49,056 nucleotides of DNA from Calidithermus chliarophilus DSM 9957. GTDB lineage: Bacteria > Deinococcota > Deinococci > Deinococcales > Thermaceae. Position 1 is the stretch's first letter. The number at the start of each line of letters is the position of its first letter. A program made the translations under genes and the position numbers. Of this stretch, positions 10,101-48,833 are shown piece by piece. The stretch covers positions 1,653,316 to 1,702,371 of the forward strand of contig NZ_KE387023.1 in the NCBI RefSeq assembly GCF_000430045.1, given 5' to 3'. Below the pieces are notes generated by a model. The model was not told where the DNA came from and ran no database searches. It saw only the letters and a list, made by a program, of their open reading frames with translations.

Positions 10101-10391
10101 GCCTGGAACCGGGGGAGGTTCTGATTTGTTCCGGCTCGAGAGCCGCGTGCCTCGAGCCGGTGATGTTTCCTGTGTCAGTAAACCGTCGAAAGGCGGGAAC
10201 GGTTCGAGTTGGCCCTGACTCCCAGGGTCCCAGGGGCAGTGCCGGGAGTAAGGCGAAACCACCCAGGCCTGCTATGCCGCACTCATAGTGGGCAAACGCG
10301 GGCTCAAGCGCTTGCGGCTGTGGTGATGCACTGCGGGCCGTGGGTATTGCAGCCTTTCGGCAAGTCCCGGTGGTTTCAACCCTTAGGTTGG
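10101..10391. mobile_element. Structured non-coding stretch, possible IS200/IS605-type relic
   Basis: There is no convincing ORF. The stretch holds several hairpins (for example CCCTG-ACTC-CAGGG near 10215) and ends with GGTTTCAACC followed by the palindrome CAACC-CTTA-GGTTG (10377-10390). The TAA stop of the DUF5063 gene (minus strand, 10383-10385) lies inside this palindrome. The layout of a structured tract ending in a short hairpin looks like the 3' end of an IS200/IS605 element, but no tnpA or tnpB remains, so the call is tentative. Confidence 0.35.
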
Positions 10392-10961
10392 GTCGGCATT
10401 AAACCAACCCAGGTCGTAGAAGGCGGCCCGAGTGTGGATCGCCCGGATCGCGCTTATAGCGTGCTCTCCCCAGTGGACCTCGAAATTGAACCGCCACTCC
10501 CATAGGGCTGCTCCGCTCTCGCCGCGCTCCCACTGCCGCAGGCCTGCGAGCAGATCCCGGTAGATATCAGAAATGTCATCGACCAGCGACCCGCCAACCG
10601 GCTCGGCGTTTGAAGTTTCATAGGGGTCGAACACTTCAAGGTAATAGTCGATCTCACCCAGATATCCGGCTAAGCGTGCGACAACCTGGCGGATTTGTTG
10701 CTCCAGTTCCTCCCGGCGATAGTTGTCTGCCTGCGCGTTAGATGCCTCTTCGTCGTCGTTTTCGGGTCCGAATAACACGTCCGTGTGTGGAAGCTCCAGG
10801 GCGCCGAGATAGAGCCGGGATAACAGATGATGTAGCCGCTGAATAAAGCCTCTCGAGGGGGAAGCTTCCTCCCCCTCGAGAAAGCCGCAAAACTCGTCCG
10901 CAAGCTGTGCAAACGTTGCCAGCGCAGGGTGGCTAATATAGGGGTTAACAAAATCGCCCAT
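10383..10961 (-). CDS. DUF5063 domain-containing protein
   Basis: A 192-residue acidic, helical protein with the DUF5063 pattern: an early ATFAQLADEFCGFLEG helix, LLSRLYLGALELP, and later LVDDISDIYRDLLAGLRQWE followed by WRFNFEVHWGEHA. The function of the family is unknown. It starts 3 nt after the pheT stop codon on the same strand, so it is probably read from the pheST transcript. Its base composition looks less GC-rich than that of its neighbours, suggesting acquisition. Its stop codon lies in the terminal palindrome of the possible IS relic, so the last few residues may not be native. Confidence 0.7.
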   Translation of the reverse strand: MGDFVNPYISHPALATFAQLADEFCGFLEGEEASPSRGFIQRLHHLLSRLYLGALELPHTDVLFGPENDDEEASNAQADNYRREELEQQIRQVVARLAGYLGEIDYYLEVFDPYETSNAEPVGGSLVDDISDIYRDLLAGLRQWERGESGAALWEWRFNFEVHWGEHAISAIRAIHTRAAFYDLGWFNADPT

Positions 10962-10964
10962 GGC

Positions 10965-13313
10965 TCAGCGCCGGATCGCGTACCCCGCCTCCTCGATGGC
11001 CCCGATCACGTTCTGCATGTAGCCGTCGGTCTCGGCGTCGGTGAGGGTGCGCCCTTCGTGGCGGAAGCTGAGGTGGAAGGCCATGCTCTTCTGGCCGGGC
11101 TCGAGCGGGCTGCCCCGGTACACGTCGAAGATCTGCAGGCTCTCGAGGTGCTCGCCGGCGCTGGCGCGCAGGATGCGCTCGACCTCGCCGTAGGGCACGC
11201 CTTCGGGCACCACCACCGCCAGGTCGCGCAGCGAGGCGGGGTACTTGGCCACGTCCTTGAAGCGGGTCTGGGAGGCGGGGAGCGGGAGCTCGAGCTCGAC
11301 CAGATACGCCGTAGGCAGCTCGGCCTGCGCGGCGATGGCAGGGTGCAACTGCCCGATGGAGCCCACCTTCCGCCCGTTCCAGTACACCGCGCCCGAGACG
11401 CCCGGGTGCAGGTGGGCGAAGCCCTCCTTCTCGACGCGCAGCGTGGCCCCCAGGTGCGCGGCGGCGCTCTCCAGGAGCCCCTTGAGCGCGTAGAAGCCGC
11501 CCGCGAGCCCCGGCTGCCACAGGCCCGGCACCGTCTCGCCCGAGAGCAGCATCCCCAGCCGGGTGGTCTCGGACTCGTTGAACACGTTGCCGATTTCGAA
11601 GAGCAGGAAGGGGCCTTCCTCGCCCTGGGCCAGGTTGGTCTTGAGGTTGTGCAGCAGCCCGGGGTAGACGGCGGTGCGCAGGTGGGTGCGGTCGGAGGCC
11701 TGGGGGTTGGCGAAGGCCACGGTGGGGGCGGGGGCGCGGTAAAGGCTGAGCTCCTCCGGGCTGGTCCAGGAGTAGTTGACCACCTCCTGGAAGCCCAGCC
11801 CCACCAGCGCGCGCTTGAGCCGCTGCTTGGCCTCGAAGGGCTCGTCCACGCCCAGGTTGTCGGGGGCGGGGAAGAAGGAGGGGAGGGTGACGGGGATCTT
11901 GTCGTAGCCGATGATGCGGGCCACCTCCTCCACCAAATCCTCCTCGATCTCCATGTCCATGCGGTGGGTGGGCGCGGTCACCCGGTAGGGCTCGGCGCGG
12001 CCCTCGACCCGGAAGCCCAGGCGCTCGAGGGCCTCGAGCTGCTCGGCCTCCGCGAAGCCGGCCCCGATGAGCCGGTTGGCGTAGCTGGGGCGGAAGGCGA
12101 TGGGCTCGCGCGGGCGGGTGTGGTTGAGGTCGATGCGGCCCTCGGCCACCTCGGCGCCCTCGCCCTGCCACTGCTGCACCAGCTCCATGAAGCGCAGCGC
12201 GGCCCGCACCTGCCCGTCGGGGTCCACGCCGCGCTCGAAGCGGTAGCTGGCCTCGGTCTTGAGGCCCTGCCGCTTGGCGGTGCCCCGGACGGAGACCGGG
12301 TCGAAGTGGGCGACCTCGAGCGCGACCTCGGCGGTGTCCTCGCGGACCTCGCCGTGCGAACCGCCCATCACGCCCGCGATGCCCTCGGGGGTGTTGTGCC
12401 CGCCGTGCTCGACCGTGATGAGCAGGTCGCGCCCGTCGAACTCGCGCTCCACCCCGTCGAGCGTGACCAGCCGCTCGCCCTTGCGGGCGCGGCGCACCCG
12501 GATGCCCTCCCCGATGAAGCGGGCGTCGTAGGCGTGGATGGGGTTGCCCAGCTCGAGCATGGCGTAGTTGCTCGCGTCCACGATGCGGCTGATGGGCCGC
12601 ATCCCGGCAGCGTAGAGGCGGCGCTGCACGGCGAGCGGCGAGGGCCCGTTGCGCAGGTTGCGGGCGTAGGAGAGGGTGAAGCGGTCGCAGCCTTTGGGGT
12701 CGTCGATCCAGACCTGGAAGGGGAGGGGGATGGGGGTCGTCCTGGGCCTGGGGTCGGGGTGGACGAGGGTCATGCCCAGAGCGGCCAGGTCGCGGGCCGT
12801 GCCGTACACCGAGAGCACGTCGGCGCGGTTGGGGGTGATCTCGACCTCGACCACCCAGTCCTCGGGCCAGGCCTCGGCCAGCGGCGTGCCGGGGGGTAGG
12901 GCGTCCTCGGGGAACTCCATCAGCCCGCCCGCGTACTCGCCCACCGCCAATTCCTTGGCCGACAGGGCCATGCCGTAGGACTCCAGGCCCTGGATCTTGC
13001 GGGCGGAGAGCTCGAGGCCCCCCGGCAGCACCGCGCCCGGCAGGGCCAGCGCCACGCCCATGCCCGCCCGGGCGTTGGGCGCCCCGGAAACCACCTGGAC
13101 CTCCCGCCCGGCGTCGAGCACGAGCTTGCGCACCTCGGCGCCGGGGATGGGCTCCACCGCCAGCACCCTCGCGAAGACGATCCCGGCGTCGGGGGCGGGC
13201 AGGCGGTCGATGGTCTCGGTCTCGTGCCCCAGCCCGGCGAGCAATTCCTCCAGCCGCTCGGGGGCGGGTGCTTCGGGCAGGAACTCTTTGAGCCAGCTAT
13301 AGACGATTCGCAT
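10965..13313 (-). CDS. pheT: Phenylalanine--tRNA ligase beta subunit
   Basis: A 782-residue subunit of the (alpha-beta)2 PheRS. The ATG start (MRIVYSWLKEFLPE) is preferred over an in-frame TTG two codons upstream because GGAGG lies 6 nt before the ATG. It has the tRNA-binding EMAP-like domain (about 40-145, VEPIPGAEVRKLVLDAG), the B3/B4 editing domain (with GNPIHAYDARF), the B5 domain (ITPNRADV and later VEEVARIIGYDKIP), and the C-terminal anticodon-binding FDX-ACB domain (KYPASLRDLAVVVPEGVPYG). Length is typical for Thermus-like PheT. Confidence 0.96.
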   Translation of the reverse strand: MRIVYSWLKEFLPEAPAPERLEELLAGLGHETETIDRLPAPDAGIVFARVLAVEPIPGAEVRKLVLDAGREVQVVSGAPNARAGMGVALALPGAVLPGGLELSARKIQGLESYGMALSAKELAVGEYAGGLMEFPEDALPPGTPLAEAWPEDWVVEVEITPNRADVLSVYGTARDLAALGMTLVHPDPRPRTTPIPLPFQVWIDDPKGCDRFTLSYARNLRNGPSPLAVQRRLYAAGMRPISRIVDASNYAMLELGNPIHAYDARFIGEGIRVRRARKGERLVTLDGVEREFDGRDLLITVEHGGHNTPEGIAGVMGGSHGEVREDTAEVALEVAHFDPVSVRGTAKRQGLKTEASYRFERGVDPDGQVRAALRFMELVQQWQGEGAEVAEGRIDLNHTRPREPIAFRPSYANRLIGAGFAEAEQLEALERLGFRVEGRAEPYRVTAPTHRMDMEIEEDLVEEVARIIGYDKIPVTLPSFFPAPDNLGVDEPFEAKQRLKRALVGLGFQEVVNYSWTSPEELSLYRAPAPTVAFANPQASDRTHLRTAVYPGLLHNLKTNLAQGEEGPFLLFEIGNVFNESETTRLGMLLSGETVPGLWQPGLAGGFYALKGLLESAAAHLGATLRVEKEGFAHLHPGVSGAVYWNGRKVGSIGQLHPAIAAQAELPTAYLVELELPLPASQTRFKDVAKYPASLRDLAVVVPEGVPYGEVERILRASAGEHLESLQIFDVYRGSPLEPGQKSMAFHLSFRHEGRTLTDAETDGYMQNVIGAIEEAGYAIRR

Positions 13314-13325
13314 TTGCAACCTCCG

Positions 13326-13403: not shown

Positions 13404-14492
<1,089 letters not shown>

Positions 14493-14501
14493 CTACCGCT
14501 C

Positions 14502-14533
14502 GAAAAGAGGGCGGGCGGCACGAGGCCGCCCGC
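14502..14533 (-). terminator. Attenuator-type terminator in the pheS leader
   Basis: GCGGGCGGC (14511-14519) and GCCGCCCGC (14525-14533) form a perfect 9-bp stem with a 5-nt loop. On the minus strand it is followed by CCTCTTTTC. It lies 37-68 nt upstream of the pheS start. A second, competing hairpin (14534-14558, arms GCGGGAGT and ACTCTCGC in the RNA) lies just upstream. Confidence 0.7.
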
Positions 14534-14559
14534 GAGAGTGCCGTGGCAACTCCCGCAGG

Positions 14560-14589
14560 CTACCTAAAAAACCACCCCCAAGCCCACAT
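14560..14589 (-). CDS. pheST leader peptide (9 aa, Phe- and Trp-rich)
   Basis: On the minus strand ATG (14589) opens a nine-codon frame encoding MWAWGWFFR followed by TAG. The two adjacent TTT Phe codons lie at 14566-14571, about 27 nt before the competing hairpins of the attenuator. An AGG sits 6 nt upstream of the ATG. The layout matches the E. coli pheST leader, where ribosome stalling at Phe codons prevents termination. The ORF is too short to be secure by itself; the case rests on its place before the hairpin and pheS. Confidence 0.6.
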   Translation of the reverse strand: MWAWGWFFR

Positions 14590-14856
14590 ATTGCCTACGA
14601 GCTTAACCCGAGCCGCCCGCTTTCTCAAGGGGCGGCTTCGCCCGTGGTCAGATGTCACAGGCTATAGGCCCGCCGCTCGGTAGGCTTAGCTTGTTCTGGG
14701 TGCACCGGGACGGGGGCTAAAACTTTACGAATTGCGTCGTCTTACGCTGTCATCTTTTCGTCTAGCGAACGCCTGCTGAAGTCGATCTCGAGCCTATGGG
14801 GGTGAAGTGGAGCGAACCACTTCGCCCTCGCCCTCTTGTGGGGTCGGTGGGCGGTA
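14590..14856. other. Upstream part of the pheST leader and flank
   Basis: No ORF is supported. A hairpin GCCGCCC/GGGCGGC lies at 14612-14636; its arms could pair with the attenuator arms. TATAGC near 14665 on the minus strand is a possible -10 box, but no matching -35 is seen, so the promoter is not fixed. Confidence 0.35.
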
Positions 14857-15122
14857 GCCGGGCGCGGGCGCGGGTCGTGCGTCGTACGTCCTACGTCGTA
14901 CGCGAGACGCCGAACGCCGAACGCCAAACGCCAAACGCCAAACGCCAAATGCCAAACGCCAAATGCCAAATGCCAAATGCCAAATGCCAAATGCCAAACA
15001 AATGCCAAATGCCTTGTTCCTCCCTTGGCAAGGGGGGTTAGGGGGGATAAACCCTCCCTGCCGGCGGGGAGGGGTTTACCATGAGCTTCCCGCTTACCGC
15101 TGAAGGCTGATGGCTGAAAGCT
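14857..15122 (-). repeat. Mosaic intergenic repeat, copy B, with a long 7-mer array
   Basis: The modules of copies A and E appear in reverse order: a near copy of GCCGGGCGCGGGTCGTAC, GTACGTCCTACGTCGTACG, then about fifteen tandem 7-mers of the AACGCCA/AATGCCA type (about 14905-15013), then the GGCAAGGGGGGTTAGGGGGG and CCTCCCTGCCGGCGGGGAGG modules, and finally CTTACCGCTGAAGGCTGATG. It fills the space between the pheS leader and the 3' end of the VanW gene. Confidence 0.8.
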
Positions 15123-16983: not shown

Positions 16984-19611
16984 TCAGATCTCGTCCTTGG
17001 CGAGGTCGTTGAAGCGCACGTGCTGGGCGTGGAATTGCAGGTCCACGGTCCCGGTGGGGCCGTTGCGCTGCTTGCCCACGATGATCTCGGCGATGCCCGC
17101 CTTCTCGGAGTGGGGGTTGTAGTAGTCGTCGCGGTAGATAAACAGCACCAGGTCGGCGTCTTGCTCGATGGAGTTGTGCACGATGATGTTGTTGGCGACG
17201 AAGTTGTGCGGGCCGGGGACCGTGAGGTCGAAGACCTCTTCCTCCCCGGCCGCCTCGACGGACACCACTTTATCCCAGTAAATGTCACCGCCGGCTATGC
17301 GCTCGAGCGCTTGCGACCCCGGGGCCTTCGCCATCCGCAGGGCGCGCTCGCGGCTCAGGTTTTGCTTGAAGAGGGTCGTGCCCGAGTAGGCCGTGCTCAG
17401 GGCCCGGTGCAATTCCCGGTGGGAAAGGCCCGAGACCGCCAGGTCGGTCCGCGCGGGGTGTAGCCACAGCTCGAGCGGGATCACGTCCCGGTTGGTGTTT
17501 TCCGGGCGGGCCTCTAGGTAAGCCTCGACCTGCGCCAGGGCCTGGCGCTTGTAGCTGCCCACAGCCCCGACCTCGCGCGCGAAGCGCAACAGGCTGGAGC
17601 GGCCGCTGACGATGACGTGGAACTGGTCGCGCCCCTTGCCCTTCTGCGGCAGGCGCTTGAGCCGGGAGTTGATCCCCAGGCTCAGCAGCAGGGTTTGCAC
17701 GTCCAGGGCCAACCGCTCGCTGCTGCTGGCGTAGTAGACGGCGGGGTAGGGGGACTTGCCCTGCCGCAGGAGGACGCAACCGTCCGTAGACCACAGGTGC
17801 CGCAGGAAGCGGGCGATCGCGGGGGCGGGCTGGGTGAACACCTGCTCGGGGACCCGCTTCTCGTGAGAACGCAGGCCCCACACCCCCAGCGCCTCGAGCC
17901 ACGCCGCGACCGGGTTGCGCCTGCCCCGTCCCAGCCGTTGCGCCGCGCTCAGGTAGACCTGCAACCACCTGCGCTCGGGCTTGATCCTGGGGACGATGGC
18001 TTCGCCGAACACCGCTCGAGCCAGCTCGGCTACGGTTTGCGCCAGGTCGGGCTCGCGGGTGGTGTACTGCAGGGCATGGCGCGGCAGGGTGCAGCCGTCG
18101 CCGATCAGGTGGCCCAGCAAAGCCAGTTCTTCGTCGCGGAGGCTTTGCTGGCGGGAGGAGGCCAGCTTACGCGGCAGAGCCAGGTAGTCGCCCACGGCCA
18201 GCTCGTCCAGCCGCTTCCAGCCTCGCGCGGTGAGGAACTTGTGGTTGGCCGTCGCACGGATGCGGCGTCCGAGCCGGGTGGTGAGGGCGAACACCGGCTT
18301 CACGCCGGTGGAGAAGGCCCGGCTCACCCGGGCGGGCTCGAGCTTTTGGGTGGTCTCGTCGAGCGCGAGCACCTCGAAACCGCTCTTCCCGACGAGCTCA
18401 CGGATGGGCTGCCTCGAGCCGTCGGCCAACTGCACCAGGGTGTCGCCGGTGAGGCAGCCCGATTCCCTGAGGTCTGAGAGCATGGGGCGTTTGTTGGGGC
18501 GGGCCTCCACCGCGCGCGAGAGCTGCGAGAGGGCGATGACGGGCACCTCGAGCTCGCGCGCGAGGTTCTTCAGCCCGCGCGAGATCTGCGCGATCTCCTG
18601 CTGGCGGTTCTCCCCGGCGTTCTTGCCGTTGTTGGGGCCCGACATGAGCTGGAGGTAGTCGATGACGATGAGCCCGAGCTTCTGCTGCGCCCGCAGGCGG
18701 CGCGAGCGCGAGCGCAGCTCCATGAGCGTCATGTCCGGGGTGTCGTCGATCATGATGGGGGCCTCGGAGATGCGCCCGGCCACGTCGACGAGCCTGGAGA
18801 AGTCCCGGTCGGTGAGCTGCCCCTGCCGCAGGCGGTTCATGTCGATGCGGGCCTCGGAGCACATCATGCGCGTCACGAGCTGCACGGCCGGCATCTCCAG
18901 CGAGAAGATGGCGACGCCGAGCCCCTCGCGCAGCGCGACGTTCTGGGCGATGGTGAGGGCGAAGGCGGTCTTGCCCATCGAGGGGCGCGCGGCGATGATG
19001 TTCAGCGACCCCGGCCCCAAGCCCCCCAGCATCGAGTCCAGCTCGCGGAAGCCGCAGCGGATGCCCTCGGTCTGGCCCTGGTTCTCGTAGAGCATCTGGA
19101 TGTGCTCGAAGGTCTCGTGAACCAGGTCGCGCATGCTCTGGAACTCGGTCTTGCCGCCCTGGAGCGAGACCTCGAGCACCTTGCGCCCGGCGCTGTCGAG
19201 GATGTCCTCGAGGCTGCCCGCCTCCTCGTAGGCCATGCGCATGGCCTCGCCGGCGGCGTTGATCAGCTTGCGCAGCGTCCACTTCTCCGCGACGATGCGG
19301 CCGTAGTAGTCGGCGTAAGCCGCCGTGGGCGTGGTCTCGGAGAGCCCCACGAGGTAGGACAGGCCGCCCACCTCGTCGAGCTCGCCGCGCGTGCGCAGCT
19401 CGTCGGAGAGCGTCACCAGGTCGATGGGCTCGTTGCGGGCGCGCAGGTGTTCCATGGCCAGCCAGATCTTGCGGTGGCCTTCCTTGTAAAACGCCTCCGC
19501 ACTCAAGGAGCCCTCGAGCCGGTCCAGGACTTCGCTGTCGAGCAGCACCGAACCCAGCACGCTGGCTTCGGCCTCGAGGTTGTGGGGAGGGATGCGACCT
19601 TCCATAAGCAC
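16984..19611 (-). CDS. dnaB: Replicative DNA helicase DnaB containing an intein
   Basis: An 875-residue precursor. The exteins (residues 1-385 and 814-875, 447 residues in all) make a normal DnaB: N-terminal domain starting RIPPHNLEAEASVLGS, Walker A ARPSMGKTAFAL, Walker B LGLIVIDYLQLM, and LSQLSRAVEARPNKRPMLSD. The intein interrupts RESG|SIEQDADLV, a classic DnaB insertion site. The GTG start has AGGAG nearby; an ATG two codons later is possible. Splicing is needed for a working hexameric helicase. It is divergent from tRNA-Asn. Confidence 0.96.
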   Translation of the reverse strand: MLMEGRIPPHNLEAEASVLGSVLLDSEVLDRLEGSLSAEAFYKEGHRKIWLAMEHLRARNEPIDLVTLSDELRTRGELDEVGGLSYLVGLSETTPTAAYADYYGRIVAEKWTLRKLINAAGEAMRMAYEEAGSLEDILDSAGRKVLEVSLQGGKTEFQSMRDLVHETFEHIQMLYENQGQTEGIRCGFRELDSMLGGLGPGSLNIIAARPSMGKTAFALTIAQNVALREGLGVAIFSLEMPAVQLVTRMMCSEARIDMNRLRQGQLTDRDFSRLVDVAGRISEAPIMIDDTPDMTLMELRSRSRRLRAQQKLGLIVIDYLQLMSGPNNGKNAGENRQQEIAQISRGLKNLARELEVPVIALSQLSRAVEARPNKRPMLSDLRESGCLTGDTLVQLADGSRQPIRELVGKSGFEVLALDETTQKLEPARVSRAFSTGVKPVFALTTRLGRRIRATANHKFLTARGWKRLDELAVGDYLALPRKLASSRQQSLRDEELALLGHLIGDGCTLPRHALQYTTREPDLAQTVAELARAVFGEAIVPRIKPERRWLQVYLSAAQRLGRGRRNPVAAWLEALGVWGLRSHEKRVPEQVFTQPAPAIARFLRHLWSTDGCVLLRQGKSPYPAVYYASSSERLALDVQTLLLSLGINSRLKRLPQKGKGRDQFHVIVSGRSSLLRFAREVGAVGSYKRQALAQVEAYLEARPENTNRDVIPLELWLHPARTDLAVSGLSHRELHRALSTAYSGTTLFKQNLSRERALRMAKAPGSQALERIAGGDIYWDKVVSVEAAGEEEVFDLTVPGPHNFVANNIIVHNSIEQDADLVLFIYRDDYYNPHSEKAGIAEIIVGKQRNGPTGTVDLQFHAQHVRFNDLAKDEI
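17173..18456 (-). other. DnaB intein (428 aa) with LAGLIDADG-type endonuclease domain
   Basis: The intein runs from Cys386 (CLTGDTLVQLADG, block A) to Asn813 (block G NIIVHN, then extein Ser). Block B is seen as RATANHKFLTARGWKRL (TxxH), the two endonuclease dodecapeptides as LLGHLIGDGC and LRHLWSTDGC, and block F as VFDLTVPGPHNFVAN. All splicing residues look present (Cys1, block B His, penultimate His, terminal Asn, Ser+1). The endonuclease acidic residues in both dodecapeptides look intact, so homing may still be active. Confidence 0.95.
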
Positions 19612-38250: not shown

Positions 38251-38281
38251 GACCCTGAGCCCGCTAGGGTGACACAGCTCG

Positions 38282-38440
38282 GCCCGTCCTTGGTGCTGTG
38301 GCGCGTAGCCGCAGCTTAAAGTGGGGAAACCGGTGAAGCCCGCAGGGGCCAGTCCGGTACTGTCGCGCAACGGTGAGGGTGCATTGGGACCGACCTCCGG
38401 TCACCGCCTCGAGTCCGAATACCTGCCAAGGAGCCTCCCG
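38282..38440 (+). promoter_or_regulatory. Cobalamin riboswitch aptamer
   Basis: The conserved core of the B12 aptamer is readable: GGGGAAACCGGTGAAGCCCG, then GCCAGTCCGG, the B12-box-like ACTGTCGCGCAACGGTGA, and the 3' CCGAATACCTGCC. The position before btuF and the rest of the B12 genes fits. CCGAATAC (38415-38422) can pair with GTATTCGG (38477-38484) downstream, giving a possible alternative fold that links the aptamer to the terminator. Boundaries are approximate. Confidence 0.92.
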
Positions 38441-38504
38441 ACCCGATTAAGGAGGCACCTCTCGCAAGAAGGGGGAGTATTCGGGGAACCACCGCTTTTC
38501 GGAT

Positions 38505-47363: not shown

Positions 47364-48833
<1,470 letters not shown>

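Follow-up and report, generated by a model that had tools for sequence, protein, structure and literature searches.

A putative Phe-responsive attenuator with an almost leaderless leader peptide upstream of pheST in Calidithermus chliarophilus and related bacteria

Introduction

How is the pheST operon, which encodes the two chains of phenylalanyl-tRNA synthetase, adjusted to the supply of charged tRNA-Phe in the Thermaceae? In Escherichia coli the operon is preceded by an attenuator (pheM) that consists of a Phe-coding leader peptide, hairpins and a terminator before pheS-pheT. The pheM peptide comprises 14 residues, five of them Phe, and is located after rplT. T-box leaders likewise sense tRNA charging upstream of aminoacyl-tRNA synthetase genes, but do so without a leader peptide. 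In a preliminary description of a 49 056 nt stretch of the Calidithermus chliarophilus DSM 9957 genome (hereafter the window), a Phe leader peptide and an attenuator were proposed upstream of pheST. Here the sequence of this locus is compared with that of its relatives and its folding is examined.

Results

A Phe-coding frame and promoter-like boxes upstream of pheS

On the minus strand, positions 14589-14560 read ATG TGG GCT TGG GGG TGG TTT TTT AGG TAG, a frame of nine codons (Table 1). When the sequence was re-read, the coordinates and the layout of the frame and hairpins as given in the preliminary description proved to be correct. The element was found upstream of pheS in 21/21 non-Thermus Thermaceae (g1-g3), and each copy carries TTT TTT in frame. 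The peptides have 8-9 residues and end in (W/R)-F-F-(R/G/S)-stop, and their non-Phe residues differ among the relatives (e.g. MARRWFFG, MSGRWFFG, MTGRWFFR and MRRGGRFFR). The 21 leaders do not represent independent events, because the sequences are related. Retention of the Phe codons in every relative that keeps the hairpin (21/21) supports the proposal of a Phe leader peptide and attenuator before pheST, for which the preliminary description had named loss of these codons as refuting evidence. None of the 24 Phe codons of C. chliarophilus pheS is TTT; this codon is not scarce in every relative: of the 486 Phe codons in the 21 pheS genes taken together, 152 are TTT.

A TANNNT box ends 6-11 nt upstream of the leader start codon in all 21 leaders, and 19 of these also have a TTGA-type -35 box at a spacing of 17-18 nt (L109 has TTGTGT and L107 has no clear box). 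The C. chliarophilus boxes were not listed by a pattern scan because they fall below 9/12 matches. In C. chliarophilus transcription is predicted to start at approximately 14593, with a 5' UTR of roughly 3-5 nt; over the leaders as a whole it would measure about 0-5 nt. According to PMC3160421, a box of this kind approximately 10 bp before a start codon most probably marks a leaderless gene, and such boxes were numerous (around 40%) in each of the five Deinococcus-Thermus genomes of that survey. The position of the -10-like box relative to the start codon therefore makes it probable that ribosomes read the leader from an mRNA with almost no 5' UTR. A transcription start downstream of 14560, named in the preliminary description as evidence against the proposal, is unlikely given the promoter-like boxes upstream; the TAGACT box past the stem remains, and is possibly a second promoter for basal pheS expression.

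Table 1. Coordinates in the window of the pheST leader elements and of the genes that follow.
Feature	Position	Strand	Evidence or remark
-35-like box TTGAGA	14623..14628	-	17 nt before the -10-like box
-10-like box TAAGCT	14600..14605	-	ends 10 nt before the leader ATG
Leader ORF MWAWGWFFR-stop	14560..14589	-	frame retained in 21/21 leaders
Control codons TTT TTT (Phe-Phe)	14566..14571	-	42/42 codons are TTT across the 21 leaders
Antiterminator-like hairpin	14529..14559	-	99.1% of alignment cells paired
Terminator-like stem, 9 GC pairs, 5-nt loop CTCGT	14511..14533	-	folding and terminator scan
Weak U-tract CCTCTTTTCG	14501..14510	-	terminator scan and inspection of the tail
TAGACT, -10-like box past the stem	14490..14495	-	no -35 match by eye; in many Meiothermus leaders, not in all relatives
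Shine-Dalgarno sequence GGAGG of pheS	14470..14474	-	sequence
pheS, phenylalanyl-tRNA synthetase alpha chain	13404..14465	-	Pfam PF01409, PF02912
pheT, phenylalanyl-tRNA synthetase beta chain	10965..13319	-	gene after pheS

Upstream of the pheST promoter, at 14907-15013 and 14843-14900, a tandem 7-bp unit TTTGGCA/TTTGGCG (minus strand) lies beside GTACGAC-type repeats, and about 40 places in the genome are similar to the 14843-14900 stretch. Directly after pheT follows a DUF5063 gene (10383-10961, minus strand) with a GC3 of 0.65 compared with 0.97 in pheST. The window also contains a DnaB helicase gene split by an intein that carries a LAGLIDADG endonuclease domain (16984-19611, minus strand), and Rfam matches to a SAM riboswitch (48677-48831, minus strand) and a cobalamin riboswitch (38274-38444, plus strand). 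At the leader itself no Rfam family matched beyond chance; for the T-box no match was obtained at the gathering score in the window, nor up to an E value of 10 at 14400-14700.

Two overlapping stems between the leader and pheS

The leader ORF is followed by an 11-bp hairpin, CCTGCGGGAGT...ACTCTCGCGGG, the first base of which is the base directly after the leader stop codon. In C. chliarophilus 5 nt (14533-14529) are common to this hairpin and the terminator-like GC stem, and an overlap of 3-6 nt is present in 20/20 distinct leaders. The folding of the leader was better than that of 200/200 shuffled sequences (z -3.76). The GC stem is strong and was called by the terminator scan, which gave two such sites in a 501-bp stretch versus a mean of 0.5 in shuffles. 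Its U-tract is poorer than the T runs of the trpE and ilvB leaders of C. chliarophilus described below (7 and 8 T), and some relatives have CAAGCCUUGA or CUCUCGUUCG at this position.

In the alignment (A1; 21 leader rows, of which 19 are distinct) the first helix consisted of standard pairs in 99.1% of the cells and the second was paired in 95.3%. The covariation was 0.202 for the first helix versus 0.140 in shuffled alignments and 0.086 versus 0.063 for the second, and in both cases 0/500 shuffles scored as high. Changes on both sides were found in one pair of each helix, and 6/12 pairs of the first and 7/9 of the second do not vary. Most pairs are thus without evidence from covariation, because the core of both stems is invariant.

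Folding of the leader with a ribosome at successive codons

The effect of a ribosome on the leader was calculated in an A-site scan, in which the leading edge of the ribosome was placed 12 nt downstream of the A-site codon's first base, on an RNA truncated before the 3' arm of the terminator. Twenty distinct leaders were used for the folding scans and for codon shuffles, L101 being identical to L100. In 20/20 leaders the value for the first hairpin was 0.88-1.00 when the A site was occupied by the first Phe codon and 0.00-0.02 when it was occupied by the stop codon. At the second Phe codon it was 0.61-0.77 in 19 of the 20; in L091 the hairpin was already lost (0.01). The same scan gave 0.65-0.70 (Phe codons) versus 0.07 (stop) for E. 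coli pheM, and 0.93 (Trp codons) versus 0.52 (stop) for the E. coli trp leader. The Thermaceae leader and pheM are therefore alike in that, by an identical calculation, the hairpin forms while a ribosome is on the Phe codons and disappears once it is at the stop.

Equilibrium folding of the full-length leader with a ribosome was dropped as a test of the switch, as the E. coli trp leader also fails it. By this calculation the terminator stem wins at the first Phe codon in C. chliarophilus (mean 0.81, 37°C). Since the E. coli trp leader behaves alike, with the terminator at 0.94-0.96 at its Trp codons, this result neither helps nor hurts the proposed switch. A pairing of GGTGGT in the leader with the 3' arm of the terminator was weighed as the basis of a default-on switch and as a reason for the Trp codon, and was dropped. 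The pairing appears in the minimum-energy and consensus folds and keeps the terminator shut in most untranslated leaders; it follows from the G-rich composition, as codon-shuffled leaders give a similarly low terminator probability.

Distribution of the leader in Thermaceae and other families

The gene pheS was located in 50/50 genomes of the family. Upstream sequences were covered for 21 of the 22 g1-g3 genomes (pheS of G019 is cut by a contig end) and for 26 of 27 Thermus-type genomes (G042 is split) plus G049. In other families they were covered for 3/4 genomes of f2, 4/4 of f3, 13/14 of f4 and 20/36 of f5. A class-level search gave 69 genomes of >95% completeness, all of which were already in the order-level set. 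The element was missing from 27/27 Thermus-type pheS upstream sequences. A covariance model gave one match per genome, always before pheS, in 21 of the 50 family genomes, which are the 21 genomes from which it was built; no match was obtained in the 28 Thermus-type genomes, nor in G019. The single match per genome implies that at this threshold there is no second copy of the leader in the family. Group g4 was taken as Thermus because the N-terminal stretch of its L112 pheS product is identical to that of the chain in PDB 1pys, which we take to be the T. thermophilus protein.

The upstream sequences were also filtered for nearly leaderless frames, defined by TANNNT 5-12 nt before ATG or GTG, a length of 6-25 codons, Phe within the last five codons and a hairpin of <= -8 kcal/mol within the next 45 nt. 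Sequences that passed were 21/21 in g1-g3, 0/27 in the Thermus type (g4, g5), 13/13 in f4, 18/20 in f5, 2/4 in f3 and 0/3 in f2. Of dinucleotide-shuffled g1-g3 upstream sequences 1.7% passed, and over all shuffles 0-2.5%. When Phe was not demanded the numbers of frames (with those containing Phe in parentheses) were 29 (24) in g1-g3, 14 (14) in f4, 22 (20) in f5, 2 (2) in f3 and 2 (0) in f2, and there were none in the Thermus type. The f2 leaders hold SPF, yet they miss the condition on the last five codons.

In f4, a sister family, the sequence is another one and the layout is alike. All 13 leaders have FFF or LFF before the stop (peptides such as MRTCGFFFSN, MAAFFFP and MRGLFFG), encoded by TTT as well as TTC. 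In the A-site scan the first hairpin was at 0.72-0.90 at the last Phe codon and at 0.00-0.04 at the stop in 13/13. The hairpin after the stop mostly abuts the GC stem in f4 (overlap of 0-1 nt in 12/13), so that mutual exclusion of the hairpins is not general. Family f5 has a shorter version of the leader, and many of its members carry ASPF(I/T) with a single Phe. In several f5 leaders (L157-L176) an AAGC...GCTT pairing within the leader ORF was seen by eye. The A-site scan covered 11 of 20 f5 leaders and all four f3 leaders. In f3 the first hairpin was weak, with no clean switch in three of the four leaders. The classical scheme may thus fail in f4, in several f5 leaders and in f3, because the overlap is unclear in f4 and f5 and a clean switch is lacking in f3.

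In the Thermus-type sequences (L110-L136) a TATYCT-type -10-like box was observed by eye, mostly a few bases before the pheS start. This suggests that Thermus pheS is probably leaderless and that the attenuator has probably been lost. Loss in Thermus is the simpler reading, as other families of the order have the leader.

Leaders of trpE and ilvB

At the L183/L224 loci of C. chliarophilus, leader peptides precede trpE (MVRALTVKGWWWPR-stop, Trp-rich with GWWWPR) and ilvB (MPASLALTLVVVGLVIIGPTGDRV-stop, rich in Val, Ile and Leu). In both, a TANNNT box lies 9-10 nt upstream of the start and the frame is followed by a folded region and a run of 7 or 8 T; judging from the promoter boxes they would be nearly leaderless as well. 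The near-box filter was passed by trpE leaders in 7/8 genomes (G021 fails) and by ilvB leaders in 8/8, with a T run of only 3-5 in some. For ilvB the filter set no demand on residues, and two loci gave a second, unrelated frame. In the same number of genomes (eight) no Phe leader was found before pheA by the filter for short ORFs with a near box, and no leader directly upstream of leuA by a filter for Leu runs.

Discussion

The frame, its Phe codons, the hairpins, their spacing and the promoter-like boxes are established by comparison of sequences. From these we infer the transcription start, translation, stalling, termination and the direction of control. Taken together, we consider it very likely that the element is a ribosome-mediated transcription attenuator of pheST that senses charged tRNA-Phe. 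The RNA would start at the leader ATG or a few bases before it, and a ribosome would begin the nine-codon leader on a 5' UTR that is minimal or absent. Under a shortage of Phe-tRNA, this ribosome would pause with TTT in the A site and its leading edge roughly at the base that follows the stop codon. The 14559-14529 hairpin could then fold and remove 14533-14529 from the terminator stem, so that the polymerase would continue into pheS-pheT. If Phe-tRNA is ample, the ribosome would reach the stop codon, 9 nt further, and mask the 5' arm of the hairpin, upon which the GC stem (14533-14511) would form and part of the transcription would stop. Because the U-tract is weak, the stop is proposed to be leaky, which would be fitting for an essential enzyme.

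It is unlikely that the leader senses Trp in addition to Phe. The C. chliarophilus leader contains three TGG codons, and a stall on any of these keeps the first hairpin intact (0.96), but a single Trp codon, the one preceding the Phe pair, is widely common (19/21 leaders), and two relatives (L093 and L097) have CGG (Arg) in its place. Additional Trp codons are limited to g1 (C. chliarophilus and G003, codons 2 and 4) and L093 (codon 2). The response to Trp put forward in the preliminary description is therefore unsupported as a conserved trait. Somewhat less probable still is translation attenuation, in which the ribosome on the leader would govern access to the Shine-Dalgarno sequence of pheS and the GC stem would be no real terminator. 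The weak U-tracts would agree with this, as would the fact that the stem ends just 18-24 nt short of the pheS start in several relatives, and by eye the CUCUC arm, which becomes free when the ribosome is at the stop codon, has the potential to pair with GGGAG. However, the openness of the Shine-Dalgarno sequence did not change consistently between the first Phe codon and the stop (20 leaders folded to +30 of pheS, at equilibrium only), and in C. chliarophilus the core of the stem lies 47 nt from the start codon.

We give little credence to the idea that the stem is a constitutive leaky terminator or an mRNA 5' hairpin, and that the short ORF is conserved as RNA only, without being decoded for Phe. 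Across the 21 leaders there is no variation in the T6 run or in several of the bases flanking it, as for an RNA signal, whereas f4 encodes Phe by both TTC and TTT in other sequence contexts. Furthermore, the Phe codons are near the stop, in the last positions at which a ribosome still leaves the hairpin intact, and the trpE and ilvB leaders bear their own cognate codons. Arrest by the nascent peptide, in which free Phe or some other effector, and not uncharged tRNA, would cause WFFR, or SPF in f5, to stall the ribosome, appears just as improbable. The conservation of a one-Phe motif, mostly ASPF(I/T), in many f5 leaders speaks for it. Yet a peptide this short hardly extends into the exit tunnel of the ribosome, and in f1 and f4 the residues other than Phe vary freely.

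The attenuator proposed here differs from pheM in its 8-9 codons with two Phe, its own promoter-like boxes, an almost absent 5' UTR, a first hairpin directly after the stop and a weak U-tract. The start of the RNA has a parallel in trpL of Sinorhizobium meliloti, where, according to PMC7298713, the leader RNA begins at the ATG of the leader ORF and the peptide is leaderless; that system senses Trp, belongs to another phylum and has another sequence. Predicted leader-peptide control outside Proteobacteria is represented by the ilvB, trp, trpS and leuS leaders of Actinobacteria, and for the phenylalanine operons of that group the same paper reports no conserved RNA structure upstream (PMC1262725). 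For Thermaceae, no description of a pheST leader was found in the open-access literature searched, in agreement with the preliminary description, in which none was known for this group. What is probably new is the reading of the leader from a nearly leaderless RNA, as judged from how close the -10-like box lies to the start codon (6-11 nt), together with the similar trpE and ilvB leaders. Older work is said to have described trp and leu attenuator-like leaders in Thermus, which would make the trpE part less novel.

The chances are about even that Thermaceae and their relatives have a common set of nearly leaderless attenuators (Phe for pheST, Trp for trpE and branched-chain amino acids for ilvB) in which translation starts at the 5' end of the RNA, that the one of pheST is older than the split of several families, and that Thermus has lost it and now has pheS directly behind a promoter. 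In PMC2965389 (2010), a survey of attenuators, the authors were aware of no leader-peptide system other than those in Proteobacteria and Actinobacteria before they added their Firmicutes case. The pheST leader would add a strongly conserved case in another lineage, thermophiles included. It would also link leaderless translation to the coupling of transcription and translation, which are usually separate fields, and its compact layout (approximately 90 nt) would make it possible to ask directly if initiation on a leaderless RNA proceeds quickly enough for RNA polymerase to be steered by it. The apparent loss of the element in Thermus offers a reason why it would not have come to light in the model genus.
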